From Sphingobium chungbukense (lineage in GTDB: Bacteria > Pseudomonadota > Alphaproteobacteria > Sphingomonadales > Sphingomonadaceae): a stretch of DNA of 64,000 bases. The stretch spans positions 1 through 64,000 of the forward strand of contig NZ_LBIC01000009.1 in the NCBI RefSeq assembly GCF_001005725.1. The letters are read 5' to 3'. Below are positions 4,548 to 23,146 of this stretch, in pieces. The notes beneath the pieces were generated by a model. That model did not search any database. It saw nothing but the letters and a program-made list of their open reading frames with translations, and had not been told where the DNA came from. Position 1 is the first letter of the stretch. The number at the start of each line of letters is the position of its first letter. Position numbers and translations under genes: made by a program.

Positions 4548-4760
4548 TCGGGCTGATACCATGTCGAGACATGCGCCTGCGCTTTTAGAACCGGACCGAC
4601 CGCTGGGCTCCCGGACGCATATGCAGACATTTCGGCGTGAGGTCACACCGAGTTGCCGTTCTCGACGGGATTACCAGTCCCGGCACCGCCGCAATCGAGG
4701 CGCACCAGACTCCTAGCACAGCTGTGGAATGGCACCAAGCGGCAGCGCGTTCGTCGCCCA
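4548..4760. repeat. Structured intergenic repeat, family 1, copy A
   Basis: About 210 bp that match 18717-18925 in the same orientation. The best block, 4636-4684 against 18796-18844, differs at two positions in 49. Inside it are three adjacent dyads: GTGA-N2-TCAC, CGAG-N8-CTCG and GGGA-TTACCAG-TCCC. The left end holds CATGTC-GA-GACATG (4560-4573) and the conserved GCGCTTTTAG. Neither copy contains a credible gene and the flanking genes differ in identity and orientation, so the element is independent of its neighbours. Confidence 0.75.
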
Positions 4761-4883
4761 GCGCGACTGGGACATAGCTGTTTCAAGATTCCGCTGGCGT
4801 GACCGCTAATTGATGCGACGGGCCGTTTGGTAACGACAAATCGGGGCCTCACTCGCGGCCAGAAGTTCGATCAGAGTGCCGGA

Positions 4884-5384
4884 TCACCCCCACCAGGATC
4901 GCCCCTGCTCGAAATCCTCGCTCTCAGAGACAATGGGACCGTCCGGCTCGTCCGCAATATAGGGGGAGGGCAGGGGCTGCGTATGAACCTTTCGGCGATG
5001 CATTTCACCTGCCACTCGCCCGCGAGCTTCGAGGATGATTTCCAGCCACATCAGGTCGTCCATCATATTGACGATGCCGCGGCCTGCGAGACAGAAATAG
5101 ATGCAGCGCTGGAAATCGTCGCCCGCCGGATTGCTGAGGATGGACGCCAGCTTGCGCTTTCCGCCGCGCTCGCCTTCATGAACCCAGCTTACCGCTTTAC
5201 GCAGCTCGAGGACGCAATGATAAGCATCCTCTACATGCATGCCGATCGCGGCGTTCGCGATCATACGGCGCGTCGGGGCGTTCCGTCCGTCGAGTGCTGC
5301 ATCCCGCAATGTCACATCGAGATCGAACGGAGCGAGAAAAAGTGAAGCGGAATCAAACACCAAATATCTCCATTGAAAGAACAT
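4884..5384 (-). CDS. Hypothetical protein, 166 residues, divergent from the DpdA-like gene
   Basis: The minus frame uses G or C in most third positions and gives an ordered sequence, for example MFFQWRYLVFDSASLF at the N-terminus and MMDDLMWLEIILEARG near residue 125, so I prefer it to the 172-codon plus-strand frame over the same DNA (4827-5345). ATG 5384 is 4 bp from the divergent ATG 5388; an upstream in-frame ATG exists at 5444 but would overlap the neighbour. No clear ribosome site is visible for either start, which keeps confidence moderate. No domain recognised. Confidence 0.45.
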   Translation of the reverse strand: MFFQWRYLVFDSASLFLAPFDLDVTLRDAALDGRNAPTRRMIANAAIGMHVEDAYHCVLELRKAVSWVHEGERGGKRKLASILSNPAGDDFQRCIYFCLAGRGIVNMMDDLMWLEIILEARGRVAGEMHRRKVHTQPLPSPYIADEPDGPIVSESEDFEQGRSWWG

Positions 5385-5387
5385 ATC

Positions 5388-6410
5388 ATGAACAATTCGG
5401 AGGTCAAGCAAAGGTCGATCGAGATCATGGTCGGGCTCCCGCATCTGTCGGCCGGCAAGCTGCTCGAGCGCGCGCGAGCGCTTCAGCAGCCCGTTCTGGT
5501 TTCGGCAAACGCGGTTTCCCGCTGGTCATTGCGGCAGGGCTGGCGCGACTGGTCCGGCTGGTCGACAAGGGTGCTCGGCAATGCCACCGGTCTGCATAGC
5601 CTCTGTCTCGACAGCGCCGGCTTCAGTGCGATGACATGCCTTGGCGGCTATCCCTGGACCATCGACAATTATGTCAGCCTGGCTGCATGTCATCCGTTCC
5701 GCTGGTGGGCCAGCCTGGACTATTGCGTCGAACAGGAGATCGCGGGCGACCGAGACGAGGTAGTCGATCGCATCTCGCGGACTATCCGCGCCAATATCGA
5801 CTGCCGTCAGCGCGCTGAAGATCGGGGGATTGCCGCGACTTTCATGCCGGTGATCCAGGGCCGCTTGCCGTCTGATTATGAACGCTGTGCGGATGCTATG
5901 CCTGCCATAATCGAAAGGGCTGGACTCATTGGGGTCGGCTCGATGTGCCGGCGCGCCATTCATGGGCCCGAGGGGATGATCGCGGTCGTCGACCATCTCG
6001 ACCGGGTCCTCCCGCACCGTGTGCGCCTTCATCTCTTCGGCGTGAAGGGGCAGGCTTTGCCCTATCTCATACCCTTCAGCCACCGCGTCGCGTCGATCGA
6101 CAGCCAGGCCTATGGCGTTGCAGCACGGGCAACCGCGCGCCGTCAGGGGCGATCGAAGAGCGACCTGATGGTCGCAGACTGCATGGAGCACTGGGTGCGC
6201 GTCCAGCGTGATCGGCTGCGACAACGACCGCGTCGGCTGACCCAGCCATCACCCGCTGTCGAACCAAGCGGGCCGCGCGATCCCTGGGCCTGCGCCATGG
6301 CCGAGGCCCGGCGGCAAATGCGCGAGCTGATCGAATCCGGCGATCTCGACCATGACGAGACGACTATCGGCTGGATCGAGCAGTGGGCTGCGGACCTCTA
6401 CCAGGATTGA
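5388..6410 (+). CDS. TGT-fold protein of the DpdA type (deazapurine DNA modification family)
   Basis: The 340-residue protein resembles the tRNA-guanine transglycosylase barrel in its short DpdA-like form. LDSAGFSAM at residues 74-82 corresponds to the DSGGF substrate loop of TGT, and SIDSQAYG near residue 238 places an Asp where the catalytic nucleophile is expected. The CxCxxC zinc site of tRNA-acting TGT enzymes is absent, as in DpdA. DpdA inserts preQ0 into DNA. No dpdB, dpdC or other Dpd partners are visible within the window. Start ATG 5388 has GAAAGA 7 bases upstream; an in-frame ATG at 5373 is also possible. The substrate (DNA, RNA or neither) is inferred only from the family. Confidence 0.7.
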   Translation: MNNSEVKQRSIEIMVGLPHLSAGKLLERARALQQPVLVSANAVSRWSLRQGWRDWSGWSTRVLGNATGLHSLCLDSAGFSAMTCLGGYPWTIDNYVSLAACHPFRWWASLDYCVEQEIAGDRDEVVDRISRTIRANIDCRQRAEDRGIAATFMPVIQGRLPSDYERCADAMPAIIERAGLIGVGSMCRRAIHGPEGMIAVVDHLDRVLPHRVRLHLFGVKGQALPYLIPFSHRVASIDSQAYGVAARATARRQGRSKSDLMVADCMEHWVRVQRDRLRQRPRRLTQPSPAVEPSGPRDPWACAMAEARRQMRELIESGDLDHDETTIGWIEQWAADLYQD

Positions 6411-6540
6411 ATGGGCCCAGCCTCCCGGCCGGGCGAACCCGCCTTATCCGGGTGCCGCTCCTCCGCGCAGGCGCCGCAGAAAGGGGAGGGGGAACCGGGG
6501 ACGCGGGCGGATGGGCCGCCCGAGAACCCCGGAGGATCCC

Positions 6541-7185
6541 ATGAGCTACGATGTCGCATTCCGCTACCAACTGGCGCTCGAGCCGGGCGCCTTGACCACG
6601 ATCGGCGCCACGCTCCACGCCCTTCAGGCGGCCATCGCTGATTGCCGCAATGCGGGGCTTATAATCGAGAGTGATCCCGCGGTCATCCTGCTCGCGCGCC
6701 ACCTCTCGACCCTGTGCGCAGACCGGGCCGATGACGCCGAACTTCGCCACGCTTGCGCAGCGCAAATAGCGGAGCTTCGCAGCCGCCCGATGCTCAAGAC
6801 GCTGGCGCTGCGCGGGGTGGCCTATGACGAGCCCGCCAAGCGGTTGTTCCATTCAGAGGGTCGCAGCGCGATGCGCCGCCTGGCCGAGGCCCTCGGCCTT
6901 AACGACGGAAGCTTTGACGTTCGTTCCAACAAGGCCGGCCCCGCCGTCTCGGGGGAGGTAACGCTCCATGGTGAGACCATCTGGGTCCAGATGTCGCTCG
7001 GGCCATTCGGATCCGACCGCGCGATATGCTTCCGCAAGGTTCAGGGCCGCCAGGACCATATCGGTGAGCGCAACCATTGGGCTGCGGTTCGCGAGCTTCT
7101 TGAACCCGATCGCTTCGCGGCGCGCATCCGCCGGGACTTGCGGCTCCCTTTGCCGACACCCGCCCAGCCCCGCCTGGTCGCTTGA
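6541..7185 (+). CDS. Hypothetical plasmid backbone protein, 214 residues
   Basis: ATG 6541 has GGAGG at 6531-6535; the long upstream extension of the open frame overlaps the previous gene and is rejected. The N-terminal 90 residues look helical (TLHALQAAIADCRNAG, ADDAELRHACAAQIAEL), followed by a beta-type segment with VSGEVTLHGETIWVQMSLG near residue 142. It lies downstream of a purine-rich leader (AAAGGGGAGGGGG at 6480-6492) like several neighbours. No family recognised and no catalytic motif visible. Confidence 0.65.
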   Translation: MSYDVAFRYQLALEPGALTTIGATLHALQAAIADCRNAGLIIESDPAVILLARHLSTLCADRADDAELRHACAAQIAELRSRPMLKTLALRGVAYDEPAKRLFHSEGRSAMRRLAEALGLNDGSFDVRSNKAGPAVSGEVTLHGETIWVQMSLGPFGSDRAICFRKVQGRQDHIGERNHWAAVRELLEPDRFAARIRRDLRLPLPTPAQPRLVA

Positions 7186-7222
7186 GAAGAAAGGGCCATG
7201 TCTATGCTCCTTGCGAGCACCC

Positions 7223-7363
7223 GTGCCGGTATCGGCATTCTACTGTGTGCCGGCCAAGGCTTTCGAGGCGCTTATGGACCGCCTCGAAGATCTCGAACTA
7301 AACGCTATCGCGGATGCGCACGCGGGCGAGCCCGTCATCAAGATTGCGCTCAATGACCTATGA
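7223..7363 (+). CDS. RelB-like antitoxin, probably 5'-damaged
   Basis: The residues EALMDRLEDLELNAIADA and GEPVIKIALNDL are characteristic of RelB antitoxins, and the stop codon overlaps the start of the relE frame at 7353 as in intact modules. The in-frame start available is GTG 7223 (46 residues). A better placed ATG at 7198, with AAGAAAGGG just upstream, lies in a different frame; joining it to the antitoxin frame needs a one-base change near 7215-7223, so the antitoxin itself may be frameshifted. RelB normally neutralises and co-represses with RelE. Confidence 0.5.
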   Translation: MPVSAFYCVPAKAFEALMDRLEDLELNAIADAHAGEPVIKIALNDL

Positions 7364-7632
7364 GCTGGGCTTTCTAGAGTCGGCTTTTAAAGGAATGGCG
7401 CAAACTCGATTCGCAAGTTCGGGAACAGTTCAAGAAGAAGCTGATAGAACGCCTTGAGACGCCACATGTCCCTTCGGCCCGCCTGTCCGCGGGCAAGGAT
7501 CGCTATAAAATCAAGCTGCGCGGTGTCGGTTATCGTCTCGTCTACGAAGTGCACGATGCTGAGGTGATTGTTATCGTTGTCGCTGTGGGTAGACGCGACC
7601 GTAACGCCGTCTACAAGGTGGCGCAAAAATAA
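7353..7632 (+). pseudogene. RelE-type toxin, frameshifted
   Basis: ATG 7353 opens MTYELGFLESAF, the normal start of a RelE/ParE-type toxin, but the frame breaks at 7389-7391, where TTTTAAAGG carries one base too many. Removing one A restores EWRKLDSQVREQFKKKL, then KDRYKIKLRGVGYRLVYEV and VVAVGRRDRNAVYKV, ending at TAA 7630-7632. RelE-type toxins cleave mRNA in the ribosome A site. As written, the cell cannot make the full toxin; a sequencing slip in the homopolymer is an alternative. It sits in operon order after the antitoxin. Confidence 0.75.
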
Positions 7633-7704
7633 ACTGAAACCGCGGCTGCAGTGGAATCCATGCGTCAGATACGTCAGTCAGACTGACTGCGGTGACGTCG
7701 CCGA

Positions 7705-8391
7705 CTATGATCGGGGAACGCGTCTGAACCTGTAATCACCCTTCGATGCCCTCAGGGCGCGCGCGATGGCCTTGTTCGTGGCGTCGAGATCGAAACGCTC
7801 GGGATCGAATTTCCGGCCAGCCCATCGGCGCATGGCCTTGTGCTCCTCGTGGGCCGGGTCGAGCCACGCTTCAAGAAAATCGGCATAGCCGGAATAGCCA
7901 CCCACGTCTTCCGGCGGACCTGAGCGCCTGCCCGCCACGCAGCGCGGGTAGGCGGTGCCATTCTCGCGTGGCTGGCGGCGCAGACAGATCTGGTGACGCC
8001 AGCAATCCCCGAAATCATACTCATAGATGATCGTGAGCGTCGGGTCCGCTTCGTAGGGAAAGGCCAGGTCCTGGAGGCGGACCCCGGTTGCCTCGAATGT
8101 GCGAGGCCCGTAGAGGTCATCTTCGTTGAACTCCGGTGCGCCGACGGTAAGACCTCCGACGTGGAACTGGTGAAGGTGGCTGTCTGTCCATCCAAAGGCA
8201 ACCTGCAGAACTTCGTGCAGTTGGGCGAAGTTGAGCTTGACCGGCAGTTCGAGGACGCGGCTGATCCTCGGTTCGATGCCGATGATGTGGACGTTGGCAG
8301 AGACGATGAAGCAGTCGGGGTCGAAAGGGTCGAGCATGAATCCGACCATGCCGTGGGCTTCCGGCGCCGGCAATGGTTGAGGTGACGACAT
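7705..8391 (-). CDS. Plasmid pRiA4b ORF-3 family protein
   Basis: The 228-residue product shows the pRiA4b ORF-3 (IS1096 TnpR-like) pattern: LNFAQLHEVLQVAFGW with DSHLHQFHVGG near residues 60-85, then LTIIYEYDFGDCWRHQI near residues 120-137, and a C-terminal segment with GGYSGYADFLEAW. The family is common on plasmids and beside transposons, and its biochemical role is unproven. ATG 8391 is chosen; about 100 further codons upstream are open but have shadow-like composition. It is the only minus-strand gene among plus-strand backbone genes here, so it is likely an independent insertion. Confidence 0.8.
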   Translation of the reverse strand: MSSPQPLPAPEAHGMVGFMLDPFDPDCFIVSANVHIIGIEPRISRVLELPVKLNFAQLHEVLQVAFGWTDSHLHQFHVGGLTVGAPEFNEDDLYGPRTFEATGVRLQDLAFPYEADPTLTIIYEYDFGDCWRHQICLRRQPRENGTAYPRCVAGRRSGPPEDVGGYSGYADFLEAWLDPAHEEHKAMRRWAGRKFDPERFDLDATNKAIARALRASKGDYRFRRVPRS

Positions 8392-8730
8392 TTGCGTTAA
8401 TCGCTCGGCGGCAATCGCCAGCGGTGCGCAATGGTTCGCACCCGAAAGCCGTCGATTGACGGTGGCCCTGGGACGAAACGCGATAGAGGTCGGGCTCGAG
8501 CCCGGCTCCGGGTATCTCACCGGGTGTGGCGCAGGACGATGCCTGATATCAAGCCCGCAAGTCGCCGCCGATCGCGAAGCCATTCTTGCCGCTGTTGTGC
8601 ATCCGCGGCTTGCGGGCGACCTGCTCGCCGGCGCTGCGGCCCCGCGCGCGGCAAGCGCCGCGCACGAAGCCTTGCGGAGCGCCGGAGGAGCAGCGCCCCA
8701 CATCGACTACCCTTTACGCAGGAGCCCGTC
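8392..8730. other. Intergenic region between divergent genes
   Basis: No gene is supported; open frames here are extensions of neighbours. A perfect 14-bp palindrome CGGGCTCGAGCCCG lies at 8491-8504. The right end carries CAGGAG at 8719-8724, the ribosome site of the next gene. The space presumably holds divergent promoters, but no clear -35/-10 pair was found. Confidence 0.3.
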
Positions 8731-9057
8731 ATGAGCCGCTATGATCTCAAACCCAAGGCCCACAGCGGCGCTATTGCCGTGGTCGTCGGTTGGGATCGAC
8801 CCTTGCAGACCTACTTCGCCCAGGTCTTCACCCCGACCCAAGACGAGCCGGAGGAAGGCGAGGCGATGACCTGGCTCGGGACGGAGCCGGGAGAACTGCC
8901 GACACCGGAGGCCGCGATCGCCGTTGTCGTGCGTTATGCCGAAATCCCTGCGACGCTCGCATCCGACCTTGAGGCTGACATGCGCGCGACCATCGGCGTG
9001 AAGGACGGAACGCACCAGGCCGAGGCCAAGCGCGGTCTGTTCGGCTCATTCCACTGA
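8731..9057 (+). CDS. Hypothetical plasmid backbone protein, 108 residues
   Basis: ATG 8731 follows CAGGAG by 6 bases. The protein starts MSRYDLKPKAHSGAIAVVVGWD and has a mixed alpha/beta composition with an acidic middle (DEPEEGEAMTWLG) and PEAAIAVVVRYAEIP. It resembles short orphan proteins of sphingomonad integrative elements, usually near DUF736 genes, as here. No catalytic signature is visible. Confidence 0.65.
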   Translation: MSRYDLKPKAHSGAIAVVVGWDRPLQTYFAQVFTPTQDEPEEGEAMTWLGTEPGELPTPEAAIAVVVRYAEIPATLASDLEADMRATIGVKDGTHQAEAKRGLFGSFH

Positions 9058-9204
9058 CCGGAAGACTCGCCCTCGAGGCCGCGAAGTGCGGACCTCGGAC
9101 AGGGGCGCTTGCGCGCCGGCTCGGCCGAACGGCCGAGGAGGGGAGGGGGCCTGAGGAAGGTGGTCCGGACAAGGTGTTCGAGGCCATCCTCCAGGAGAAG
9201 TCCC

Positions 9205-9681
9205 ATGAACATCGGTACGATCAGGCAGAATGACGCCGGCATCCATGTCGGCAAGATCGCGACGCTCACCATCGCGATAACGATTGCGCTGCGCGAGGTA
9301 CACTCGGCCAATCCCAAGGCGCCCAAATATGAGGTGCTGGCACTGTCGGCCTCGCGGGCCTGGGTTCACGTCGGTGCGCTTTTCGAGCTGTTCTCGAATG
9401 GCACCGGCGAGGCCTTCCTCAATGGCAAGATCGAGGATCCGAGCCTGGCAGCGCCGCTCTACATCTCCGCGTTCCGCCAGGACGACGGCAGCTACAATGT
9501 CGTCTGGTCGCGCCCGACGCGTCGCCGCGATCTCGCCTCCGAGATGACGCCCAAGGCCGATGACGGCCTGCCGCCACTGCCCGGTGCCGACGAGACCGCC
9601 GGTGCCGGCGCGGCCATGAGCGGCGAGGGCCCCGAGGCTGGCCTCGGCCAATCCTCGAGCGAACACGCCTTCGCCGGCTGA
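9205..9681 (+). CDS. DUF736 family protein
   Basis: The 158-residue product matches DUF736: GTIRQNDAGIHVGKIATLTI at the N-terminus, a central KYEVLALSASRAWVHVGALFE, and PLYISAFRQDDGSYNVVWSR near residues 90-112. DUF736 proteins are small and plasmid-associated, with unknown function. CAGGAGAAG upstream supports ATG 9205. The tail after residue 125 is a low-complexity Gly/Ala/Ser extension that is duplicated, with its terminator, at 12528-12774. A purine-rich leader lies at 9137-9151. Confidence 0.85.
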   Translation: MNIGTIRQNDAGIHVGKIATLTIAITIALREVHSANPKAPKYEVLALSASRAWVHVGALFELFSNGTGEAFLNGKIEDPSLAAPLYISAFRQDDGSYNVVWSRPTRRRDLASEMTPKADDGLPPLPGADETAGAGAAMSGEGPEAGLGQSSSEHAFAG

Positions 9682-9699
9682 TTGCCGCATCGCGCCCAA

Positions 9700-9730
9700 G
9701 GGCCTCGCTCCCCATCCCGGAGCGGGGCCC
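9700..9730 (+). terminator. Hairpin terminator after the DUF736 gene
   Basis: GGGCCTCGCTCC (9700-9711) pairs with GGAGCGGGGCCC (9719-9730) over 12 bp with one G-U, with a 7-base loop, 18 bases after the stop. A short T-containing tail (GATTTCT) follows. A homologous hairpin lies at 12736-12774. Confidence 0.65.
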
Positions 9731-9805
9731 GATTTCTCGTCCTCCGGCCGCGCGGCCGAAAAGACGGGGGGCACCGGGTCAGTGCTCACAAGGAAGGAGA
9801 AGACC

Positions 9806-10318
9806 ATGCCCGACGCCATCGATCTCGGCGGTGCGCCTGCAGATGAAGACTGCGCACAGCTTGGCCAGACGGAAGATTTTGCGCGGCTCAACCGCCTCGA
9901 GGTCGCAACCTACCGCGCGGCGATGATCGCCCGCTTCGGTCAGCCGCCTGAAGGCTGTGCCTTCGTCACTCTCGCCAACCGGCACGACTTCGGTATTTAT
10001 CGTACGCTCGGGCTCACGATCGACGCCGGTTCCGCCCACAGCGACGCCGCCGTCCTAGCCTATTCACAGGCCGTCCAGGACGGACTTTCAAGCTGGGTCG
10101 AGGCGGGCTTCGCGCCGCCGGTACGTTATGACGATGATGGCGTCCCGACCCTCGAGCGCGACAGTATCGCCGATATCGTCATGGGGGCGATTCTCGCGAC
10201 CCGCCCGAATGCGACGGGCCGCTATCCCGTCCACGACTTCGAACGCCTCCACCAAAATCTTGTCGCTGCCTATCCGGGCAGCGCCGCGCCATTCTGCAGG
10301 AGATCAGCGCATGACTGA
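9806..10318 (+). CDS. Hypothetical plasmid backbone protein, 170 residues
   Basis: ATG 9806 follows AAGGAAGGAGAAG, a strong ribosome site. The protein contains ARLNRLEVATYRAAMIARFG and then CAFVTLANRHDFGIYRTLGL near residues 50-70. No family recalled. Its stop codon overlaps the next start by 8 bp, so the two products are probably translationally coupled. It precedes the DUF6878 and DUF6915 genes in an order that recurs in sphingomonad mobile DNA as I remember it. Confidence 0.65.
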   Translation: MPDAIDLGGAPADEDCAQLGQTEDFARLNRLEVATYRAAMIARFGQPPEGCAFVTLANRHDFGIYRTLGLTIDAGSAHSDAAVLAYSQAVQDGLSSWVEAGFAPPVRYDDDGVPTLERDSIADIVMGAILATRPNATGRYPVHDFERLHQNLVAAYPGSAAPFCRRSAHD

Positions 10319-10784
10319 CTTCAAGCTCACCACCGAACAGGCTGCCACCGCGGCGCGCATCGTCGCCGAGATCGATGAACAGCTCGGCCGTGTCCGTGAG
10401 GCCGAGAGCCGCTGCAAGGCGAGCTTTCTGCCGATCCTGGCCGAACACGGCATCACCCGCGTCGAGATCGGCTATGATGGCGGCGGCGACGAAGGCTCCG
10501 TCGGCGATGTCACCGCCTATGCCGGCAACGAAACGAGGGACTTGCCGTCCGTTCTGTGCGATCATTTCGCCGTGGAATGGAGCGGCGACATGATGATCCG
10601 CGCCATCCAGCTGGAGGATGCGTTGAGCGCCTTTGCGGAAAACGCCGCGAGCGACCATCACAGGGGCTGGGAGAATGGCGAAGGGGCCTGGGGCACCATC
10701 GCGATCGACGTGGCGAGTGGCGCGGTTACACTTACGCATAACAGCCGCTTCGTCGACTATGACACGACTGAGACGGAACTCTGA
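10311..10784 (+). CDS. DUF6878 family protein
   Basis: The 157-residue protein has the signature VEIGYDGGGDEGSVGDV near residues 46-62 and ENGEGAWGTIAIDVASGAVTL with HNSRF near residues 120-145, the pattern I associate with DUF6878. The function is unknown; the GYDGGGDEG stretch is acidic and could bind a metal, but that is a guess. ATG 10311 lies inside the end of the preceding gene, after GCAGGAGATC, and the stop is 2 bp before the next GTG, so this is the middle gene of a tight three-gene run. Confidence 0.75.
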   Translation: MTDFKLTTEQAATAARIVAEIDEQLGRVREAESRCKASFLPILAEHGITRVEIGYDGGGDEGSVGDVTAYAGNETRDLPSVLCDHFAVEWSGDMMIRAIQLEDALSAFAENAASDHHRGWENGEGAWGTIAIDVASGAVTLTHNSRFVDYDTTETEL

Positions 10785-10786
10785 CC

Positions 10787-11155
10787 GTGTCGCACTGCCA
10801 TTATCATGCGCTGAGCTCGATGCGCCGCTGGGGCGGCAAGCCGGACGATTATATCGCGCTTCATCAGTGGTTCGACGAATCCAAGAAGATCATCGCCGAC
10901 CCGCGTCACCGCGCGCTGCGCCACCACGCCGAAGGTATCTTCCTGGCTGAGACGGTGTTTGGCGTCATCATCCGGAATAGCGACGGCCGCGCGGTGCCGG
11001 TGCGCCTCATCGGCGAGATGCATGTCACAGAAGATCTCGGCCGGATTCCCTCATTTGCCGATTGGGCACGGCTCATCCAGCCCATGCCGTGGGTTCTGCG
11101 GGGCAATCCGGCGGGATCGCCAGGACTGGATCCCAAGCTCGGGTCAATGGAGTGA
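10787..11155 (+). CDS. DUF6915 family protein
   Basis: The 122-residue protein matches the DUF6915 pattern: YHALSSMRRWGGKPDDYIAL, then HQWFDESKKIIADPRHRALR, HHAEGIFLAETVFG and IPSFADWARLIQPMPW. Conserved His and Asp residues (HHAEGIF) hint at metal or nucleic acid binding, but no activity is known. The start is GTG 10787, only 2 bp after the preceding stop, implying coupled translation. Confidence 0.8.
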   Translation: MSHCHYHALSSMRRWGGKPDDYIALHQWFDESKKIIADPRHRALRHHAEGIFLAETVFGVIIRNSDGRAVPVRLIGEMHVTEDLGRIPSFADWARLIQPMPWVLRGNPAGSPGLDPKLGSME

Positions 11156-11259
11156 CATTATACGCAGAACGCTCGATTTCCCGGATGGCAAGGAGATTAC
11201 GGATATCAGCAGCTATGCCAATTTGGGTGTGAGGGACACGCAATGCGCCTGTCCATACC

Positions 11260-11373
11260 ATGATCATCGGTTTTCCGGGCCAGCATGAAGGCGCGGTCTG
11301 TCCCGTTGCGTTCGGGTTCAAGACCGAGATGATCGAACTGCTCAACCGCTGGCGGGATTTCGAAACCGACTAG
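11260..11373 (+). CDS. Short open frame, 37 residues
   Basis: MIIGFPGQHEGAVCPVAFGF followed by KTEMIELLNRWRDFE is compact and protein-like, ending at TAG 11371-11373. No ribosome site is obvious before ATG 11260, and a degraded frame (TLDFPDGKEITDISSY) lies just upstream at 11166-11215. It may be a real small protein or the end of a decayed gene. Confidence 0.3.
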   Translation: MIIGFPGQHEGAVCPVAFGFKTEMIELLNRWRDFETD

Positions 11374-11421
11374 ACCTGCCACCGCTCGCGCGTTCGCGCG
11401 ATTTGCGCTATCGTCGGAGCC

Positions 11422-11616: not shown

Positions 11617-11779
11617 CAGCCCGACCGGAACGCCGGTTCATTCCTTTTTCGAATAGCGACACGCTGACTCCGCAGCCGCGCCTTGTGGGAAGAGGGAAGG
11701 GGGCGTGGGCAAATGGTCCGGGCTTTTTCCCGAGGCCGCCCCCGCGCCGGGATTGGCGCCGTCCCAAGGAGTAACACCC

Positions 11780-12475: not shown

Positions 12476-12527
12476 GCAGGATCGCGATGCGCTGCATCAG
12501 TGCCCTTTTGACTGGCTCCAGCGCGTA

Positions 12528-12692
12528 CCTGGTGCAGACCACACCGGGAGTGCCGGTGCCGACATTAGCGGGGAGGGTGCCGAGGCTGGCCTCGGCCAGT
12601 CCTCGAGCGAGCATGGCTTCGGCGAAGATTCCGAGGAGCCAGCGCGTCGCGACTGCCGCCAGCGCGCCCCTGAACCCGTCGAACAAGACTGA
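12528..12692 (+). pseudogene. Duplicated 3' fragment of the DUF736 gene
   Basis: The DNA and translation (PGADHTGSAGADISGEG, then AEAGLGQSSSEHGFGED) match the last 35 codons of the DUF736 gene at 9580-9680. No DUF736 core precedes it, so it is a fragment left after deletion or unequal recombination. The following hairpin at 12736-12774 matches the DUF736 terminator, so the duplication covered the gene end and its terminator. Confidence 0.7.
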
Positions 12693-12735
12693 CGCTATCG
12701 CCTGACCCCGCGTCCCGAGCCCCCGGCGCGGGGTG

Positions 12736-12774
12736 ACAGGGCTCGCTTCGCACCCCTGGCGAAGCGGGCCCTGT
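12736..12774 (+). terminator. Strong hairpin terminator, duplicated type
   Basis: ACAGGGCTCGCTTCG (12736-12750) pairs with CGAAGCGGGCCCTGT (12760-12774) over 15 bp with one T-G, with a 9-base loop, followed by CTTCGTTTAG. It closes the transcript that ends with the gene at 11780 or the DUF736 fragment and isolates the toxin-antitoxin pair downstream. Confidence 0.65.
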
Positions 12775-12876
12775 CTTCGTTTAGATGCTGGCCGCTTTTG
12801 CTTCTCGTGGGAAAGGGGAGCGCATCGGCTTGCCCCGTTCGGCTCGTCCCGGGTCCGCATGCGCGTTGGAGCAAAC

Positions 12877-12909
12877 TTGCAAAACTTGCCATTTTTGCTA
12901 TATTGGCAA
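12877..12909 (+). promoter_or_regulatory. Promoter with overlapping operator of the Phd/PemK-like pair
   Basis: TTGCAA (12877-12882) and TATATT (12899-12904) are 16 bp apart, a reasonable sigma-70 promoter in unusually AT-rich DNA. An inverted repeat TTGCCA (12886-12891) and TGGCAA (12904-12909) covers the spacer and the -10 box, where a Phd-type antitoxin would be expected to autorepress. The start codon is at 12930. Confidence 0.55.
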
Positions 12910-12929
12910 TATTAATGAGGAGTTCCGCA

Positions 12930-13256
12930 ATGGCTGCCGATGCCACGCTCGTTCCGACACGGAAAGAGAATGTCCCGCTGACCGATTTCCACAACCACAC
13001 CGGACAATATCTCGATCGTGGGCGGCGGTCGCCTGTAACGATTACCAAGCATGGCCGTCCCGATCTTACGATCGCTGATGCGGCTTATTTCGAGCGCATC
13101 GAGCGCATCGCGGCCGGGCAGATCCTGGCGGTTCTGGATCTGCAGGCCGTCCCGACTGCTGAAATGACGGCGGAACATGCCGCACTCTTCGAGGCGGCTC
13201 GCCCGACCGCCCAGGAACTTGCCTCGGATCGGTGGAACGATGACGCCGCTGCCTAA
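12930..13256 (+). CDS. Phd/YefM-type antitoxin
   Basis: The 108-residue protein carries VPLTDFHNHTGQYLD followed by RSPVTITKHGRPDLTIADAA, the usual Phd/YefM DNA-binding half, with a longer helical C-terminus that would wrap the toxin. ATG 12930 follows GAGGAG at 12917-12922. It overlaps the toxin start by 17 bp. Antitoxins of this family repress their own promoter, and a matching inverted repeat lies over the -10 box upstream. The partner is a PemK/MazF-like protein rather than Doc or YoeB, an uncommon but known kind of mixed pairing. Confidence 0.75.
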   Translation: MAADATLVPTRKENVPLTDFHNHTGQYLDRGRRSPVTITKHGRPDLTIADAAYFERIERIAAGQILAVLDLQAVPTAEMTAEHAALFEAARPTAQELASDRWNDDAAA

Positions 13257-13629
13257 GGTCGGCGACATCCTCCATTACGTCTTCCTCTTCACCCATGACA
13301 AAGCCGCGGGCCGCGACGAAGGAATAAAAACGCGTCCCGTGATGGTGGCCGCTGTCAAGGATCAGCGCGTATTCACTGTAGCGATCACGACCAAAGGAGA
13401 GGCGTCTGTCTCAACGCTCCCCATACCCGATGCCGTCGCCGACGCGGCGGGCCTCGTTCGCGGGACAGCCGTCGTCATCGATCAGTACAATCACTTCACA
13501 TGGCTCGGCTACGATATACGGCCGGTCACCAGTGAACCCTCCTTTGTCGCTGGACGAATGCCCCCCGGTTTCACCAATTCCATCCTGTCCGCGCTGCTTG
13601 CCAACGCCGCATCCATCAATCGCGACTAG
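13240..13629 (+). CDS. PemK/MazF-like toxin
   Basis: The 129-residue product starts MTPLPKVGDILHYVFLF and continues RDEGIKTRPVMVAAVKDQR, FTVAITTKGE and LVRGTAVVIDQYNHF, the beta-barrel order of PemK/MazF-type mRNA interferases or growth inhibitors. ATG 13240 lies inside the antitoxin frame, so translation is coupled. The Arg before PVMV and the later Thr match the expected active-site area, although the sequence is diverged and cleavage activity cannot be read from it. The pair appears intact, unlike the RelBE pair at 7.3 kb. Confidence 0.7.
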   Translation: MTPLPKVGDILHYVFLFTHDKAAGRDEGIKTRPVMVAAVKDQRVFTVAITTKGEASVSTLPIPDAVADAAGLVRGTAVVIDQYNHFTWLGYDIRPVTSEPSFVAGRMPPGFTNSILSALLANAASINRD

Positions 13630-14190
13630 CGGCGCGGCGCCCGTGATTAGCCGAAGAATGAATTGACAGCGCCGGGTGGGGCGCTGCGCCTGGCCCGGCA
13701 GCACCGCGGGCAGTTCTGGTCATGCGCGCCACGCTTGTCCCTGTCGGCCTCCTGTCGTCAGCCGGCGGCCGAACCGATCGCGCGCCTGTGTCCGCCAGTC
13801 AACTGACCCATGTTCTCGCCACCAAAAATCCCCCCGACCCGCGCCGAAGCCGGAGCGGTGAGCAGACCCGTTGCGCCGCAGCTTCGCGCCGATCGGCCTT
13901 ATCTGTGGGGTGATCTCGACCCCAACCCTTGTCATTTCTGACAGCAAGGCCTTTCGGTGGGCGCCGGTCGCGCCTCCCGCTTGAGGGGATGAACGCTACG
14001 CCCGGGCGGGTCCGTCGCAACCCCCGATTTTCCGGCCGTGTTGAGGCCTGACGGCCTCTGTCCGCACCACCCGTCAATTCGTGGGTTCCCCTCCGCTTCG
14101 CTTCGGTGCGCCGCCCCCTCGGCCCCGGGCCTTCGCGATTGTCCATCCCAGCGGGATCGGCCCGCTGGCGCATCGCAAAGGCAAAGCATC
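13630..14190. other. Intergenic region with hairpins before ssb
   Basis: No gene is supported. Two perfect small hairpins are visible: GAGGCC-TGAC-GGCCTC at 14043-14058, and CCAGCGGG-ATCGG-CCCGCTGG at 14148-14168, the second ending 22 bases before the ssb start. They may be a leader structure for ssb or remnants of terminators. The rest is GC-rich with arginine-rich shadow frames on both strands. Confidence 0.35.
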
Positions 14191-14520
14191 ATGAACAAGG
14201 TTTTTCTCTCGGGTCGGATCACCTCGGAGATCACCCGCTTCGGCACCGACAGCAAGGGCGGCGTCAGCTTCTCCCTCGTCACCTCCAAGCCCGTCATCAA
14301 GGACGGCCAGGTCCAGAAGGACGGCAATGGCTATACCGAGACCTACGACGAGTTCCACACGATCAAGGCGTTCAACGGGCTCGGCAAGTCGGTCGCCAAC
14401 CACAAGAAGAAGGGCGACAAGCTCATGGTCATCGGCGAGATCCGCTACAGCCGTAACGAGCGGGACGGCCGCACCTTCTACAACACCGACATCGTCGCTG
14501 AGGAAATCGAATTCCTCTGA
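14191..14520 (+). CDS. ssb: Single-stranded DNA-binding protein
   Basis: The 109-residue protein is an OB-fold SSB: MNKVFLSGRITSEITRF, then GVSFSLVTSKPVIKDG, FHTIKAFNGLGKSVANH, KGDKLMVIGEIRYSRNE and YNTDIVAEEIEFL. It is shorter than chromosomal SSB and ends without the disordered linker and acidic DDIPF tip that recruits repair proteins. Plasmid SSBs act during single-stranded DNA entry and help curb the SOS response. ATG 14191 lies after GCAAAGC with only a weak purine site and 22 bases after a hairpin. Confidence 0.9.
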   Translation: MNKVFLSGRITSEITRFGTDSKGGVSFSLVTSKPVIKDGQVQKDGNGYTETYDEFHTIKAFNGLGKSVANHKKKGDKLMVIGEIRYSRNERDGRTFYNTDIVAEEIEFL

Positions 14521-14572
14521 ACCCCGGACCGGCGGCCTTCGGGCCGCCCCCTCATCTTCACGGAGACGATGT

Positions 14573-14902
14573 ATGTTCCAGCTCACCAGCTTCGAAGAGA
14601 TCGCCGGGGTCACCCATGGCATCGAAGTCCTCAACCCCAGCCTCGTCGCTCGGATCCGCCGGGCCGCCGACCAGCTCAACCGCCACGAAATCGCCGCGCA
14701 TCTCGCTGACGCGATTCTCGAGGCTGCGGACGCCGCTCACATCCGGTCGTTCGAGGAAGCCCAGTTCGGCGAAGCCAGCGCCGATGCGGTCGTCGATTGC
14801 GAATATCATGACGAGCTCGCCGCCGCCTGGTCGCTGGTAGCCGCCGAGCATCAGCTCGTCAGCCCCGATCTCCTCTTCGGCCTCGACGGGTTGGTCCACT
14901 GA
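14573..14902 (+). CDS. Hypothetical protein, 109 residues
   Basis: ATG 14573 follows CGGAGACG, 52 bases after ssb, and the gene is probably co-transcribed with it. The product is mostly helical (VARIRRAADQLNRHEIAAHL, ADAILEAADAAHIRSFEEAQ) and acidic. A minus-strand frame of 123 codons covers the same DNA but lacks a ribosome site. No family recognised. Confidence 0.5.
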   Translation: MFQLTSFEEIAGVTHGIEVLNPSLVARIRRAADQLNRHEIAAHLADAILEAADAAHIRSFEEAQFGEASADAVVDCEYHDELAAAWSLVAAEHQLVSPDLLFGLDGLVH

Positions 14903-15018
14903 CCCGTCACACATACCCGGCGAGTCCACCTCTGGACTCGCCGTCGCGCGATATACCGGGCGGTGCGATCGGCGACAGGGGCAGCGACATCATCGGTGGC
15001 GCAATGCGACCGACTGGA

Positions 15019-15555
15019 TCAAGCCAATGCGGCGACAGCCGCCGCCGCGCGAGCCGGGGCCGTTGAGGGAGCCGGCCTTGCCGTTGCCGCTTTGCTTGCC
15101 GGTGTTGAATTTACCTTCTCGAGCGCACCGCAGACCTTGGTCGCGACCTCGTCGAGCGTCGCTATCAGGCGATTGAGCTGAGACAAATTGCCGCTCAGCT
15201 CAGGGCCATAACGGATCGAGAGATATTCCCGGCCTTCGCTGAGTTTACCGAGATGCTCGAGCGTGCGCTGCCGGAGGCGCAAGGCGGCGACAGCAGGATT
15301 CGCGGTGCGCTTGCGCAGGTCGTGTTGGTAACCTCGGATTTCAGCCGGCTTCACGCCGCGCGCGAGAAGCAGTGCGTTCAGGTAAAGTTCGATGGCCTGG
15401 ATCGCTGTCATCCGCGCGGGCGCCCAGCTGGAGGGTTTGCCCCGCTTGCCGCGGCCCATCAGATCATGGGCCGCGCCGCGATATTCCTCGGCGAGCTGTC
15501 TTATGTCGTCCGATGTCGCGACCTCGCCTGGATAGGCTTTTGGTTCCCCCTGCAT
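15019..15555 (-). CDS. HEPN-like domain protein, 178 residues
   Basis: Residues 14-110 form a helical block with DIRQLAEEYRGAAHDLMGRG, then MTAIQAIELYLNALLLARGV and IRGYQHDLRKR, which resembles the HEPN fold (paired helices, a growing-end HDL, and an ELYLNALLL helix). The canonical RxxxxH nuclease motif is not obvious, so it may be a non-catalytic or nucleotidyltransferase-partnered type. The last 30 residues are an Ala/Pro-rich tail. ATG 15555 follows GTG 15558; GTGGGG lies just before. It is transcribed against the neighbours and stands alone, with no MNT partner adjacent. Confidence 0.55.
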   Translation of the reverse strand: MQGEPKAYPGEVATSDDIRQLAEEYRGAAHDLMGRGKRGKPSSWAPARMTAIQAIELYLNALLLARGVKPAEIRGYQHDLRKRTANPAVAALRLRQRTLEHLGKLSEGREYLSIRYGPELSGNLSQLNRLIATLDEVATKVCGALEKVNSTPASKAATARPAPSTAPARAAAAVAALA

Positions 15556-16037
15556 CACCCCACTTTATGGTTGATGATGCAAAGTTCCAACAATGTTCCA
15601 ATGCGAAAAATAGAAAGCCGCAGCGATCGGCGCATCCGCCCCGTGCTGCGCGCCCGACGGGACCGGGGCTCTATTCGCTAAGCGGCCGCCGGCCTGCGGC
15701 CGACCCCGGCTAACCCCACGGAGCCGCGCACGCGTCTCCGCCCGTCCGGGTCACGATCCCTTGCGTGACGGTGACCTCCGGTGAGGTTTTACACCCCTAT
15801 TCCTCTCTTGTGTCTGCCTAGTGTGGCATGCGGGGTTGGCGGTCCGTCAAGCATGAGCGGTCCCCCCAATTTTCAGCCCGCGACCGCTGCGCGGACCCGC
15901 TCAGAAAATCGGCTCCCCCGCTCCCCGCGTGGCGGCGGCGACGGCAAGCCGGTCGCCGTGCCTGACCTCCCTGACCACCGCATGCCCTGAGGCAAGCCTC
16001 ATCGTGACGATGAGACATCCAAACCTTGGAGGCTCAA
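15556..16037. other. Intergenic region with structured repeat
   Basis: It separates the minus-strand HEPN-like gene from the DUF2493 gene. The only clear content is the repeat at 15664-15760 and the ribosome site GGAGG at 16028-16032. The stretch around 15783-15830 (GTTTTACACCCCTATTCCTC) is less GC-rich and may hold a promoter. Confidence 0.35.
15664..15760. repeat. Structured intergenic repeat, family 2, copy A
   Basis: It matches 20008-20112 in the same orientation. Shared blocks are GGGCTCTATTCGC near the left end, CACGGAGC in the middle and CGGGTCACGA-N-CCC at the right end. The left part can fold: CCGGGG (15664-15669) pairs with CCCCGG (15704-15709) around an inner GGCCGC/GCGGCC stem. 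Copy B keeps the outer CCGGG/CCCGG pairing although the interior differs. Confidence 0.6.
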
Positions 16038-17027
16038 ATGACCAACACTTTCCCGAACTTCGCCGATCTCGCCAGCTTCATCGCGACCGAGACCCGAGCC
16101 GATGAGCGCAGTTCCCTCTATTCGGGCGCATTTCTCGAACATGACGAACGCGCCAAACTCTCGCCGGTCGACCAGGCCGAGCAGCTCGACATGCCTGATC
16201 CCGACCAGGCTCGCGCCGCGGTCGAGATGGTGATGGCGACCTTGTTCGACGTGTTCCGAGACACCCGCCTGGAGCCCTTTGCGGGCGACCTCGCCTGGGG
16301 CTTCGTCAACAGCTTCCACGTCGTGGCGAAGCGTATCAGCGACCGCGAGGACGATGCCGCCAAGGAACTCGGCGATCTCGCACGCAGCTTCGATCCAAGT
16401 GAAATCTACGCCACGCAGATCGAGGAAGCCCAGCTCCTCTGCCAGACGCTGCAAGGATGCCGCGACGCCATGGAATGCATGCGCGACCATGCCGCCGAAG
16501 TCTACCGGATCGAGGCCGGACGTCCCTATGCGCCGACCCGCGGCAGCCGCGTTTCGCACGGTGTCACCGCCTCGATGATCGACGCCCGCGATTTCCTTGC
16601 CGCCCGGGGCCGGGAACGTCGTGAGCAGTTCAATCCCGAAGGCCCCGTCGTCGCCTTTTCGGGCGGCCAGCAGTGGGAAGATCATGACATGCTCTGGAAG
16701 GGTCTGGACTCGATCAAAGCTCGCGTTCCGGAGATGGTCCTCGCGACCACGGCGCAGACCAAAGGCTGCGACGCCATCGCCCAGGCCTGGGCAGCAGCGC
16801 GCGGCGTAAAGGTCATCCTGTTCCGCCTGGATCGCCGTCTCGGCGCGAAGGCAGCCTTCGTGCGCAACGATCGTCTGCTCGCCCTGAAGCCGGTCGAAGC
16901 CGTGGTTTGCGAAGGTTCCGGCATCCAGATGAACCTCGCTCAGAAACTCCGCCAGGCCGGCGTCCCCCTCCACATCGTCAAGCTCACCCAGCAGCGTCCC
17001 GCCGAACGGTCCGTGCGCCGGGCCTAA
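16038..17027 (+). CDS. DUF2493 (YspA/SLOG-related) domain protein
   Basis: The 329-residue protein has an all-helical N-terminal half and a C-terminal Rossmann-like DUF2493 domain: PVVAFSGGQQWEDHDMLW near residue 200, MVLATTAQTKGCDAIAQAWA near residue 235, and GVKVILFRLDRRLG near residue 256. The G-G-xxW-DH motif is typical of the YspA branch of the SLOG superfamily, thought to sense or process nucleotide-derived ligands and often plasmid-borne. ATG 16038 follows GGAGG by 5 bases. Its ligand and role in plasmid biology are not known. Confidence 0.85.
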   Translation: MTNTFPNFADLASFIATETRADERSSLYSGAFLEHDERAKLSPVDQAEQLDMPDPDQARAAVEMVMATLFDVFRDTRLEPFAGDLAWGFVNSFHVVAKRISDREDDAAKELGDLARSFDPSEIYATQIEEAQLLCQTLQGCRDAMECMRDHAAEVYRIEAGRPYAPTRGSRVSHGVTASMIDARDFLAARGRERREQFNPEGPVVAFSGGQQWEDHDMLWKGLDSIKARVPEMVLATTAQTKGCDAIAQAWAAARGVKVILFRLDRRLGAKAAFVRNDRLLALKPVEAVVCEGSGIQMNLAQKLRQAGVPLHIVKLTQQRPAERSVRRA

Positions 17028-17263
17028 CCGCCCGCGCACCGAGAGGCTCCGGCATCCGTCGGGGCCTCTCTTTCGCACTTTTCCGCTTGGCTCGCGCCGC
17101 GCCGGGCATCGAACCCGGCGCGGCGCGTCCGGGACAGCCCGAAGCTACCAGCGCGGGGCGGAGCACGGAGGAAAGGAGGGCAGGGGCAAGCCCAACAGCC
17201 TAGGGTCAGGACCCATTGATCTGAGAGGCATGATCTGATTCAGGCTCCGTAAGGAGACTGATT

Positions 17264-17611
17264 ATGAGCGACCTGTATTGGCTGACGGATGAGCAGATGG
17301 CTCGGCTTGAGCCCTTTTTCCCCAAGAGTCATGGTCGGCCTAGGGTTGATGATCGTCGCGTGCTCAGCGGCATCATCTTCGTCAATCGCAATGGGTTGAG
17401 GTGGCGGGATGCGCCCAGGGAGTATGGCCCGGCCAAGACGCTTTACAACCGCTGGAAACGCTGGGGTGAAAAGGGTGTCTTCATCGCGATGATGGATGGT
17501 CTGTCTGCCAGAGGTGCCGAGCGCAAGACAATCATGATCGATGCGACCTATCTCAAAGCGCACCGCACGGCATCGAGCCTGCGGTTAAAAAAGGGGATCC
17601 TGGACGACTGA
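17264..17611 (+). CDS. IS5-family transposase, OrfA (N-terminal part)
   Basis: The 115-residue product has the IS5 N-terminus MSDLYWLTDEQMARLEPFFP, FVNRNGLRWRDAPREYG with TLYNRWKRW, and MIDATYLKAHRTASS, whose Asp is the first of the DDE triad. The frame ends at 17611, 18 bases after a slippery A6G4 run (17587-17596). A -1 slip on AAAAAAG joins it to the second frame, giving the unbroken KKGDPGRLIGRTKGG sequence seen in intact relatives. Transposase would therefore be made only by frameshifting, which limits transposition. Confidence 0.88.
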   Translation: MSDLYWLTDEQMARLEPFFPKSHGRPRVDDRRVLSGIIFVNRNGLRWRDAPREYGPAKTLYNRWKRWGEKGVFIAMMDGLSARGAERKTIMIDATYLKAHRTASSLRLKKGILDD

Positions 17612-17631
17612 TCGGTCGCACGAAAGGCGGC

Positions 17632-18021
17632 ATGAATACCAAGTTACACGCTGTGACGGATGCCAGGGGCCGTCCGATCAGCTTCTTCATGACGGCGGGG
17701 CAAGTCAGCGATTACACAGGAGCGGCGGCTTTGCTGGACGCTCTGCCCAAAGCACAGTGGCTGCTGGGCGATCGGGGCTATGACGCCGACTGGTTCCGCC
17801 ATGCGTTGCAGGAAAAAGGTATTACCCCCTGCATCCCGGGCAGAAAATCCCGCAACAAGACCGTCAAATACGACAAGCGCCGCTATAAAAGCCGCAACCG
17901 GATCGAGATCATGTTCGGCCGCCTCAAAGACTGGAGGCGTGTTGCAACCCGCTACGACAGGTGCCCCAATGTCTTCCTCTCCACCGTCGCTCTCGCTGCC
18001 ACGGTCCTGTTCTGGCTATGA
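17632..18021 (+). CDS. IS5-family transposase, OrfB (C-terminal part)
   Basis: The second frame is open from the slippery run at 17587 and contains GGMNTKLHAVTDARGRP, LLGDRGYDADWFRHAL with the second catalytic Asp, and RNRIEIMFGRLKDWRRVATR with the catalytic Glu in RIEIMFG. ATG 17632 is an internal Met and not a likely independent start. The product is the catalytic half of the OrfAB fusion. No inactivating changes are visible, so the element may be active. Confidence 0.85.
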   Translation: MNTKLHAVTDARGRPISFFMTAGQVSDYTGAAALLDALPKAQWLLGDRGYDADWFRHALQEKGITPCIPGRKSRNKTVKYDKRRYKSRNRIEIMFGRLKDWRRVATRYDRCPNVFLSTVALAATVLFWL

Positions 18022-18046
18022 GTCCTGACCCTAGGAGGCAAAGATC

Positions 18047-18427
18047 ATGTCCACCCAGTTTCGCATCGCCGTTCCCGCCGACGAACTTACCGACCCGGTG
18101 GCCGTCGTCACCGCTCGTCAGCTTGCAGCCTTCCGGGGCCTCCTGCGCGCGGAAGGCGATCGGCTAGGATTGCAGCTCCTCGAGCCCGACGAATATCCCG
18201 GCGAAAGCTTCGAGGCGCGCGTCTGCCCAATTGCGCTTGCATCGATCACTGCCCGTTTCGACCATGACCCTGCCGTCATCGCTGTCGTGGAGGAGGCCCA
18301 GTTCCGAGCGCGGCGGGTGTCGATCCATCGTGACCGAGCGGCCGCCGAAATCCGCATACGGGTGGCACTGACGTCAGACCGCAGCCTCGACTCCATCTCG
18401 CCTGTGGGAACGCCTAAGCGCTTCTAG
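18047..18427 (+). CDS. Hypothetical backbone protein, 126 residues
   Basis: ATG 18047 lies 12 bases after AGGAGG, just beyond the right end of the insertion sequence, so the coding region is intact while its former upstream DNA is 829 bp away. The product begins MSTQFRIAVPADELTDPVAV and includes LLRAEGDRLGLQLLEPDEYP and ITARFDHDPAVIAVVEEAQF. It is acidic in the middle with an Arg-rich segment afterwards. No family recognised. Expression may now depend on read-through from, or an outward promoter of, the insertion. Confidence 0.6.
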   Translation: MSTQFRIAVPADELTDPVAVVTARQLAAFRGLLRAEGDRLGLQLLEPDEYPGESFEARVCPIALASITARFDHDPAVIAVVEEAQFRARRVSIHRDRAAAEIRIRVALTSDRSLDSISPVGTPKRF

Positions 18428-18716
18428 GAAGCCCTGGATATCGAAGCAGACAGCACCGGCGACATTGCCATGGGAGCCGCCCGCATCGATCATTATTTCC
18501 CGCGTCTGGAAACTCTGTTGTCGATGGCCAGAGACCTTGCCGTCGCGTGCTTCAGCTGTGCGTAGCGACGGACTTGGCGCCTCTCAGCATGGCGTGGGCC
18601 GCGGCCTCTAAAAGAGCGGTGACGACAGCTCCGGCAGAACCTCCCACAGCAAGGCGAGTGCCAAGACCGGTAGGACAAAACGCCCCGGAACAACTCCCGC
18701 GCAACAAGGCGCGGGA

Positions 18717-18925
18717 GCCGGGGCTGGTAACACGTCGAGACATGCGCCTACGCTTTTAGTGCCGAGGCACCTGGACATATGCGCAGGCACCCCGGCGTGA
18801 AGTCACACCGAGTTGCCATTCTCGACGGGATTACCAGTCCCGGCGCCGCAGCTTCGCAGCGCGCCCTGCCCCTAACACAGACTGAAAACGGCACCAAGCG
18901 GCGGTCGCGGCCCTTCGTTTGATGC
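18717..18925. repeat. Structured intergenic repeat, family 1, copy B
   Basis: It matches 4548-4760. Conserved segments in order are CGTCGAGACATGCGCC, GCGCTTTTAG (here with an A in the preceding pair), CATATGC, the block 18796-18844 with its three dyads, and GGCACCAAGCGGC at 18890. Both copies are followed at the right by TGATGCG. Differences between copies fall mostly in loops and linkers. The strong 15-bp hairpin at 18683-18723 abuts its left end. Confidence 0.75.
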
Positions 18926-23142: not shown

Positions 23143-23146
23143 AAAG

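Follow-up and report, generated by a model that had tools for sequence, protein, structure and literature searches.

The DNA analysed here, referred to as the window, comprises 64,000 nucleotides (nt) of Sphingobium chungbukense (contig NZ_LBIC01000009.1, positions 1 to 64,000) and contains two look-alike segments in the same orientation, at 4548-4760 (overlapping copy 1) and 18717-18925 (overlapping copy 2), whose presence was confirmed by pairwise alignment and by a repeat finder. When run on the window, the repeat finder recovered them as direct-repeat families D3 (4606-4692 and 18766-18852, 84% identity) and D6 (4550-4593 and 18721-18764, 86% identity), and the alignment gave the same two core differences that a preliminary description of this DNA had counted, with similarity fading outside the core. 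The repetition goes beyond chance, since the element recurs in 24 plasmid records and on two further contigs of the same genome (C10 and C12). The preliminary description had proposed a conserved structured non-coding element, perhaps an RNA, and this proposal holds in outline; its mention of two conserved copies was overstated, as copy 1 looks decayed. Taken jointly, the data are best explained if the element encodes, on the minus strand, a leader RNA that acts in cis, a member of a proteobacterial superfamily and a proposed fold-choice switch; we regard this explanation as probable.

Along the minus strand, from 5′ to 3′, the element consists of a promoter, hairpin P6, hairpin Ha (with a loop of 7-8 nt), strand A, hairpin P5, the 5′ strand of P7, P3, the internal loops J1/J2 with P4, P3′, P8, strand PK, the 3′ strand of P7 and hairpin P0. 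Two pseudoknots are present in this arrangement, one between the Ha loop and the PK strand and the other, helix P2, between strand A and strand B in the P8 loop. In copy 2 these parts lie as follows:

18680..18877, minus: copy 2, complete leader RNA (205 bits with covariance model R1)
18892..18897, minus: -35 element TTGGTG of a promoter aimed into copy 2 (TTG at -20/-21 in 14 of the 15 copies of group A, the window's own type)
18870..18875, minus: weak -10 region TTAGGG, from promoter comparison
18843..18862, minus: P6, the 5′ hairpin, from the alignments; outside the seven-helix pair count
18826..18842, minus: Ha hairpin CGGGA[CTGGTAA]TCCCG, its loop pairing with 18725-18730 as a pseudoknot (covariation)
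18815..18825, minus: A strand, pairing with the P8 loop as helix P2, a pseudoknot (covariation)
18793..18810, minus: P5 hairpin, its 3′ end overlapping the P7 strand by 4 nt
18789..18796, minus: P7 5′ strand GCCGGGGT, pairing with 18717-18724 (covariation)
18781..18788, minus: P3 5′ strand, pairing with 18746-18753 (covariation)
18771..18780, minus: J1 internal loop ATATGTCCAG (AUGUCCA in 82 of 87 copies)
18759..18770, minus: P4 hairpin (covariation)
18754..18758, minus: J2 internal loop TAAAA (family consensus YAAAR)
18731..18744, minus: P8 hairpin CATG[TCTCGA]CGTG, whose loop is the 3′ strand of P2 (covariation)
18725..18730, minus: PK strand TTACCA, pairing with the Ha loop (covariation)
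18717..18724, minus: P7 3′ strand GCCCCGGC (covariation)
18694..18717, minus: P0 hairpin, directly 3′ of P7, where some relatives have terminators
18675..18688, minus: CCGGGGCGTTTTGT, a potential partner of the P7 3′ strand, with a T-rich tail; candidate alternative terminator

Copy 1 and its neighbouring open reading frame (ORF) are less regular:

4514..4718, minus: copy 1, diverged leader RNA (106 bits), with P7 broken, J1 changed and an insertion at P4
4733..4738, minus: -35 element TTGGTG aimed into copy 1
4180..4479, minus: small ORF that follows copy 1 immediately, related to the small proteins of 58-105 amino acids found after many group A copies

The last third of the ORF at 4180-4479 departs from its homologue on plasmid pTK1 as if frame-shifted, and intact relatives exist. 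The genes that come after copy 2 in the window encode a TraD-type protein at 20761-23142 and, at 23120-26170, a MobF relaxase.

The preliminary description had read the element on the plus strand. In the aligned relatives, the pairs broken on that strand are often A.C, which correspond to G.U on the minus strand. The first minus-strand alignment, of 14 sequences, contained 63 G.U and 19 A.C cells, and helix P3, placed by anchors only, showed 624 Watson-Crick, 59 G.U, 2 A.C and 11 other cells in the final set. Because of this wobble asymmetry, the functional molecule is assigned to the minus strand, and an RNA from the plus strand was ruled out. Model matches on the reverse strand, at 20-36 bits, arise because the element is nearly self-complementary.

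Covariance models were built and searched, as the preliminary description had suggested, and compensatory changes were found in seven helices (Ha, PK, P2, P7, P3, P4 and P8), a result that favours RNA. These helices were examined at fixed columns in alignment A9, which was made with MAFFT by sequence rather than fitted to structure, takes its structure from row L075 and holds 60 of the 77 non-redundant cores, copy 1 being omitted. Cells were paired in 92.6% of cases compared with 76.8% after shuffling (0 of 500 shuffles as high), 394 cells were doubly changed compared with 127, and the covariation score was 0.455 compared with 0.178 (0 of 500), falling to at most 0.086 when the 3′ partners were slid. 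The weakest helix in this alignment was P2, with 72.3% of its cells paired.

A second set was obtained by anchor parsing, in which one of 89 rows was lost (L101) and duplicates were removed, leaving 87 copies. Here native pairing exceeded that with shuffled partners for P2, the pairing of the Ha loop with PK, Ha, P8, P7 and P3 (0 of 500 each), with P2 reaching 6.46 base pairs compared with 3.98. The positions of P7′, P8′, Ha and PK were chosen in each copy by best complementarity, which biases this comparison towards the native partners, and mis-parsed rows were kept (for example L084, L096, L107, L131, L133, L139 and copy 1). One control, the Ha loop against the P8 loop, was not clean (4.02 vs 3.72, 1 of 500), and the other was (354 of 500). 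Since the parsing relied on the J1 and J2 motifs, the conservation of these loops is partly built in.

The three pairs of arms named in the preliminary description fared differently. GGGA-TTACCAG-TCCC corresponds to Ha and is supported by covariation; GTGA-N2-TCAC corresponds to P5, for which double changes were seen in an alignment of 17 sequences; it overlaps the P7 strand and stood outside the fixed-column test. CGAG-N8-CTCG, judged by eye, is not kept in the relatives, and its letters TCTCGAC belong to the long-range helix P2. A long nested stem P1, joining the Ha 5′ arm to a CCCC strand, was part of model R1 and was replaced in model R2, as the relatives keep Ha and P7 instead. Decay of sequence with no conserved pairing, the pattern that the preliminary description had named as speaking against a structured element, is not seen in the RNA family at large and does describe copy 1.

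The region 18690-18872 of copy 2 folds better than its shuffled versions (z -6.22, none of 200 as good). The overlap of P5 and P7 by four letters suggests that the two helices may alternate in this copy, and its P0 hairpin is a possible weak terminator or other platform hairpin.

The distribution of the element was studied with R1, built from 14 sequences, and R2, built from 60 diverse cores. In its own genome R1 found four strong copies, namely the two in the window, one on C10 (196 bits) and one on C12 (128 bits); a fifth, also on C12, had a weak score with R1, 27.9 bits, and a higher one with R2, 57.9 bits. Within the host family, R1 matched 147 of 397 genomes and 57 of 96 genera at E 0.001, the weakest of these matches calling for care in view of the reverse-strand scores of this near-palindromic element. 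With R2, matches were obtained in 41 of 385 genomes of the class and 38 of 398 of the phylum, the own genome being counted in both. From the family, 80 loci were fetched, picked among the higher-scoring R1 matches (all at least 47 bits) and so not a random draw; 38 of them lie on contigs longer than 1 Mb. The 24 plasmid records, found with blastn, belong to Sphingobium (10), Sphingomonas (9), Rhizorhabdus (3), Sphingopyxis (1) and Novosphingobium (1), and the match lies beneath an annotated gene in one record and beneath none in 23. Plasmid pTK1 of Sphingobium sp. TKS matches copy 1 at 100% identity. In all five plasmid records viewed, a small minus-strand ORF adjoins the element, with ssb, DUF2493 or both encoded nearby; in four of the five, TraD-type and relaxase genes come after the element in the stretch shown, as they do in the window.

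The promoter has a fixed position in relation to the element. Besides the group A copies mentioned above, 37 of 38 sigma-type copies have TTG at -19/-20, and 24 of the 35 remaining copies have it at a position from -19 to -21; a -10 box beginning with TA follows 16 nt after TTG in most sigma-type copies, being weaker in the rest. The preliminary description had regarded the element as stand-alone or as a mobile miniature element; in the relatives it is instead a leader upstream of genes. Of the 80 fetched family loci, 40 are followed immediately, on the RNA strand, by an ORF for a FecI-like sigma factor that opens within about 100 nt, and none has such an ORF on the opposite strand (counts from six-frame ORFs, not annotation); the sigma proteins that were called match sigma-70 ECF models in 37 of 37 cases. 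A position as leader on the strand of the gene is thus found for the family and for copy 1, and copy 2 stands without a recognised gene.

At the non-sigma loci the downstream genes are varied and only a few could be named with Pfam, including SHOCT (two proteins), HSDR_N (one) and a restriction-type Mrr_cat (one); at some family loci no downstream gene was called. Beyond the FecI-like sigma factors no common function was found, neither with Pfam (13 families in 40 proteins, 12 of them in a single protein) nor with PADLOC (four families, one protein each), and a GIY-YIG match falls below its cut-off. The proteins after group A copies are mostly small, and those scanned have no Pfam or NCBIfam match. 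After one sub-group of leaders, a recurrent small protein with similar starts was noticed by eye (L095, L106, L108, L111, L122 and L147); the two members scanned (L106 and L111) have no Pfam match.

In an Rfam scan of the window, neither copy matched any family at its cut-off, in agreement with the preliminary description, which recognised no known RNA family; the only match above cut-off was a terC leader RNA (RF03067, 34239-34297, minus strand, 64.3 bits). That statement does not stand for the 3′ half of the element, which corresponds to sRNA-Xcc1 (RF02221), an integron-associated RNA of Xanthomonas, so that the element is a variant branch of a superfamily including sRNA-Xcc1. Within the element, matches to RF02221 below its cut-off were found in 8 of 24 further loci (E 0.015 to 4.1); the gathering score of 53 bits was not reached, the maximum among the relatives being 35.1 bits in the loci scanned. 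RF02221 itself is present in 46 of 200 phylum genomes, in 30 of them above cut-off. Model R2 and RF02221 coincide at six places in four genomes, and R2 matches 9 of 20 true RF02221 loci at E ≤0.2 and at the right place. Upstream of the annotated sRNA, RF02221 loci carry the 5′ half, with Ha and strand A. In the portions of the published reports available to us, sRNA-Xcc1 has seven homologues in Xylella (PMC12189769), was given two additional covarying pairs in Rfam 15 (PMC11701678) and lies upstream of symE in integron cassettes in a 2025 survey (PMC12444791); a cis switch for sRNA-Xcc1 was not met in those portions of the literature.

Alternative pairings were then compared for the switch strand S3, which runs from P8 to PK, at 33 RF02221 loci from 25 genomes (of 40 loci, 7 were cut short and omitted). 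S3 pairs better with its own 5′ half than with foreign ones (24.6 vs 18.8, 0 of 2000) and also better with its own next 83 nt downstream (19.5 vs 15.2, 0 of 2000), a stretch that holds the ribosome-binding site and start in most of these loci. Locus by locus, the own upstream partner was preferred over all but at most two others in 21 of 33, and the own downstream partner likewise in 21 of 33. Since S3 takes part in both pairings, only one of them can form at a time. In 37 copies from other alphaproteobacteria outside the family (L155 and L160, cut short, were omitted), S3 again prefers its own 5′ half (25.3 vs 18.8, 0 of 2000). Of these 37 copies, 13 have a terminator-like hairpin after P7, compared with 12 of 222 control windows, and in 11 of the 37 the final 3 nt of the P7 3′ strand, and no more of it, are part of the terminator stem.

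In group A there is no gap between P7 and P0, and a downstream 6-mer that could pair with the P7 3′ strand occurs in 8 of 14 copies, a number reached by 11 of 500 shuffles; this is only suggestive of an alternative terminator. The P7 strand alone, compared with the downstream region in sphingomonads, was raised in the mixed group only (12 of 1000), the others giving 516 and 630 of 1000. By eye, tandem hairpins were seen near the start codon at L105, L109, L113, L120 and L121. A further conserved hairpin-like stretch, GCGGGGGCGYACCGC, lies between element and gene at L171, L172, L173, L226, L233, L129 and L134, again by eye, and is perhaps a third expression platform in one sub-group.

Comparison among relatives supports the strand, the fold and its covariation, the promoter, the leader position, the relation to sRNA-Xcc1 and the alternative pairings in two branches. 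From these we infer that the RNA switches, that it senses a signal and that the window copies may have an equivalent platform; their mode of action would be that of their relatives. On sequence grounds, the element is probably an attenuator acting in cis and perhaps a riboswitch. A promoter of its own, just 5′ of the first hairpin, would start the leader RNA, whose core of about 130 nt would contain the P7 closing stem, the two pseudoknots and the conserved internal loop AUGUCCA/AAA, with a 3′ hairpin ahead of the next gene. In a compact fold, the 3′ switch strand would be held by the 5′ half and P7 would be closed. In the open fold, the freed switch strand would cover the gene start region in the sRNA-Xcc1 branch, and the freed P7 end would form a terminator in some of the other alphaproteobacterial copies. 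A ligand or protein at the internal loop would set the balance between both folds.

Several observations weigh against this explanation. For copy 2, the minimum-energy fold, computed by a program that cannot form pseudoknots, has a long nested stem and lacks P7; no downstream ORF of the small-protein family, nor any recognised ORF, was found after this copy, and it gave no match to RF02221 even at E 5. Copy 1 folds no better than shuffled sequences (z -0.55, 55 of 200 as good), which, with the loss of P7, the altered J1 and the insertion at P4, indicates that it is most likely decaying. RF02221 was found in none of the five family loci scanned, compared with 8 of 19 class loci from outside the family, and at the six places shared with R2 it scores below its cut-off. 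Regarding the pairings of S3, no downstream preference exists at 5 of the 33 RF02221 loci (L192, L203, L205, L206 and L207) and no upstream preference at 4 (L175, L197, L202 and L206), and in the other alphaproteobacterial copies the downstream pairing is only slightly raised (18.3 vs 17.2, 15 of 2000). The terminator-like hairpin was not seen in 24 of these 37 copies, and the 11 terminators sharing P7 come from five genomes only. In sphingomonads, S3 against its own downstream region is not above foreign ones in any of three groups (170, 483 and 261 of 1000 shuffles reach it), so that the window copies lack the platform described for sRNA-Xcc1.

In addition, Northern blots showed sRNA-Xcc1 of Xcc 8004 as a band of about 100 nt and RACE gave 88 nt, according to the available part of that report (PMC2996969), which may also point to a free small RNA. 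This observation belongs to the published view of sRNA-Xcc1 as a free, trans-acting small RNA, which for the present element would mean that P0 is its terminator and the nearby gene incidental. The promoter of its own, the few T after the P0 hairpin and the missing downstream gene of copy 2 would all suit such an RNA. We consider it unlikely, given the same-strand sigma ORF right downstream of half of the fetched loci, the way in which switch strand and neighbouring gene start covary at the 33 sRNA-Xcc1 loci, the 11 terminators that share 3 nt with P7, and the placement of sRNA-Xcc1 itself upstream of symE.

The plasmid setting led us at first to think of a single-stranded DNA promoter of the Frpo/ssi type in a plasmid leading region, where the transferred strand folds and fires early genes on entry. 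The position upstream of TraD and relaxase genes, in the window and in four of the five plasmid records viewed, agrees with this idea; a pair of copies with the same orientation is reminiscent of Frpo1/Frpo2 of F (PMC9849209, in the part available), and the strand that folds is presumably also the transferred one. It was dropped in view of the sigma-linked copies on large contigs and the inward promoter, and we now give it very little credence: the element is not confined to leading regions of conjugative elements, many copies not being plasmid-borne, half of the fetched loci precede a FecI-like sigma ORF, the ordinary promoter into the element points opposite to the direction needed, and sRNA-Xcc1, to which it is related, is an RNA. 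A mobile miniature element, or an operator in the form of a protein-binding array, would account for the presence on plasmids and in varied gene neighbourhoods, and is more improbable still; neither an operator nor a transposable end would be expected to show compensatory changes in seven helices and to tolerate G.U on just one strand, and the geometry of promoter and downstream gene is fixed.

With the cis-acting leader as the preferred explanation, an unexplained plasmid repeat would become an entry point to a broad family of regulatory RNAs and a candidate sensor for the FecI-like sigma-factor genes of sphingomonads. A role in cis control would explain why sRNA-Xcc1 travels with integron and plasmid genes, and studies treating it as a trans-acting regulator or as a vesicle-exported RNA should check such a role first. 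A wider proposal, which we advance tentatively and hold to be somewhat doubtful, is that the element represents an undescribed, proteobacteria-wide class of ligand-sensing leaders of which sRNA-Xcc1 is merely the 3′ half. Under this proposal, each copy would carry its own "address", made up of an A strand and a P8 loop that vary together, joined in one branch by the region of the gene start, so that copies in one genome need not cross-talk, and the internal-loop forms AUGUCCA/AAA and AUACAA/GAAU would represent two ligand specificities.

Other repeats were observed in the window. Several diverged direct repeats of 35-126 nt (D1, D4, D5 and D7) lie at 57755-63009, perhaps within a long repetitive protein gene, and a direct repeat of 116 nt with 77% identity occupies 9561-9676 and 12509-12624.

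Compared with known systems, the element is closest to sRNA-Xcc1, with which it shares the P7-P3-P4-P8-P7′ core in the same place, including the P7 closing stem round the P3/P4 arm and the P8 hairpin, as well as the PK strand and the P8 loop. It differs in its internal loop, AUGUCCA/AAA instead of AUACAA.../GAAU, and in that the switch strand of sRNA-Xcc1 pairs with the gene start, whereas the sphingomonad copies are without such pairing; the Rfam model RF02221 covers the 3′ half only and is typed as a gene, not as a leader. With the Frpo/ssi sequences of the F plasmid, as described in the available parts of PMC9849209 and PMC11541004, the element shares a plasmid location close to transfer genes and the presence of two like-oriented copies; unlike them, it has many copies on chromosome-sized contigs, an ordinary promoter leading into it and RNA-type covariation. 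Finally, the element resembles metabolite riboswitches and attenuators in being a 5′ leader with a compact pseudoknotted core, a conserved unpaired loop and mutually exclusive platform pairings in two branches, and it departs from them in that no pathway common to its downstream genes is evident outside the FecI-like sigma group.

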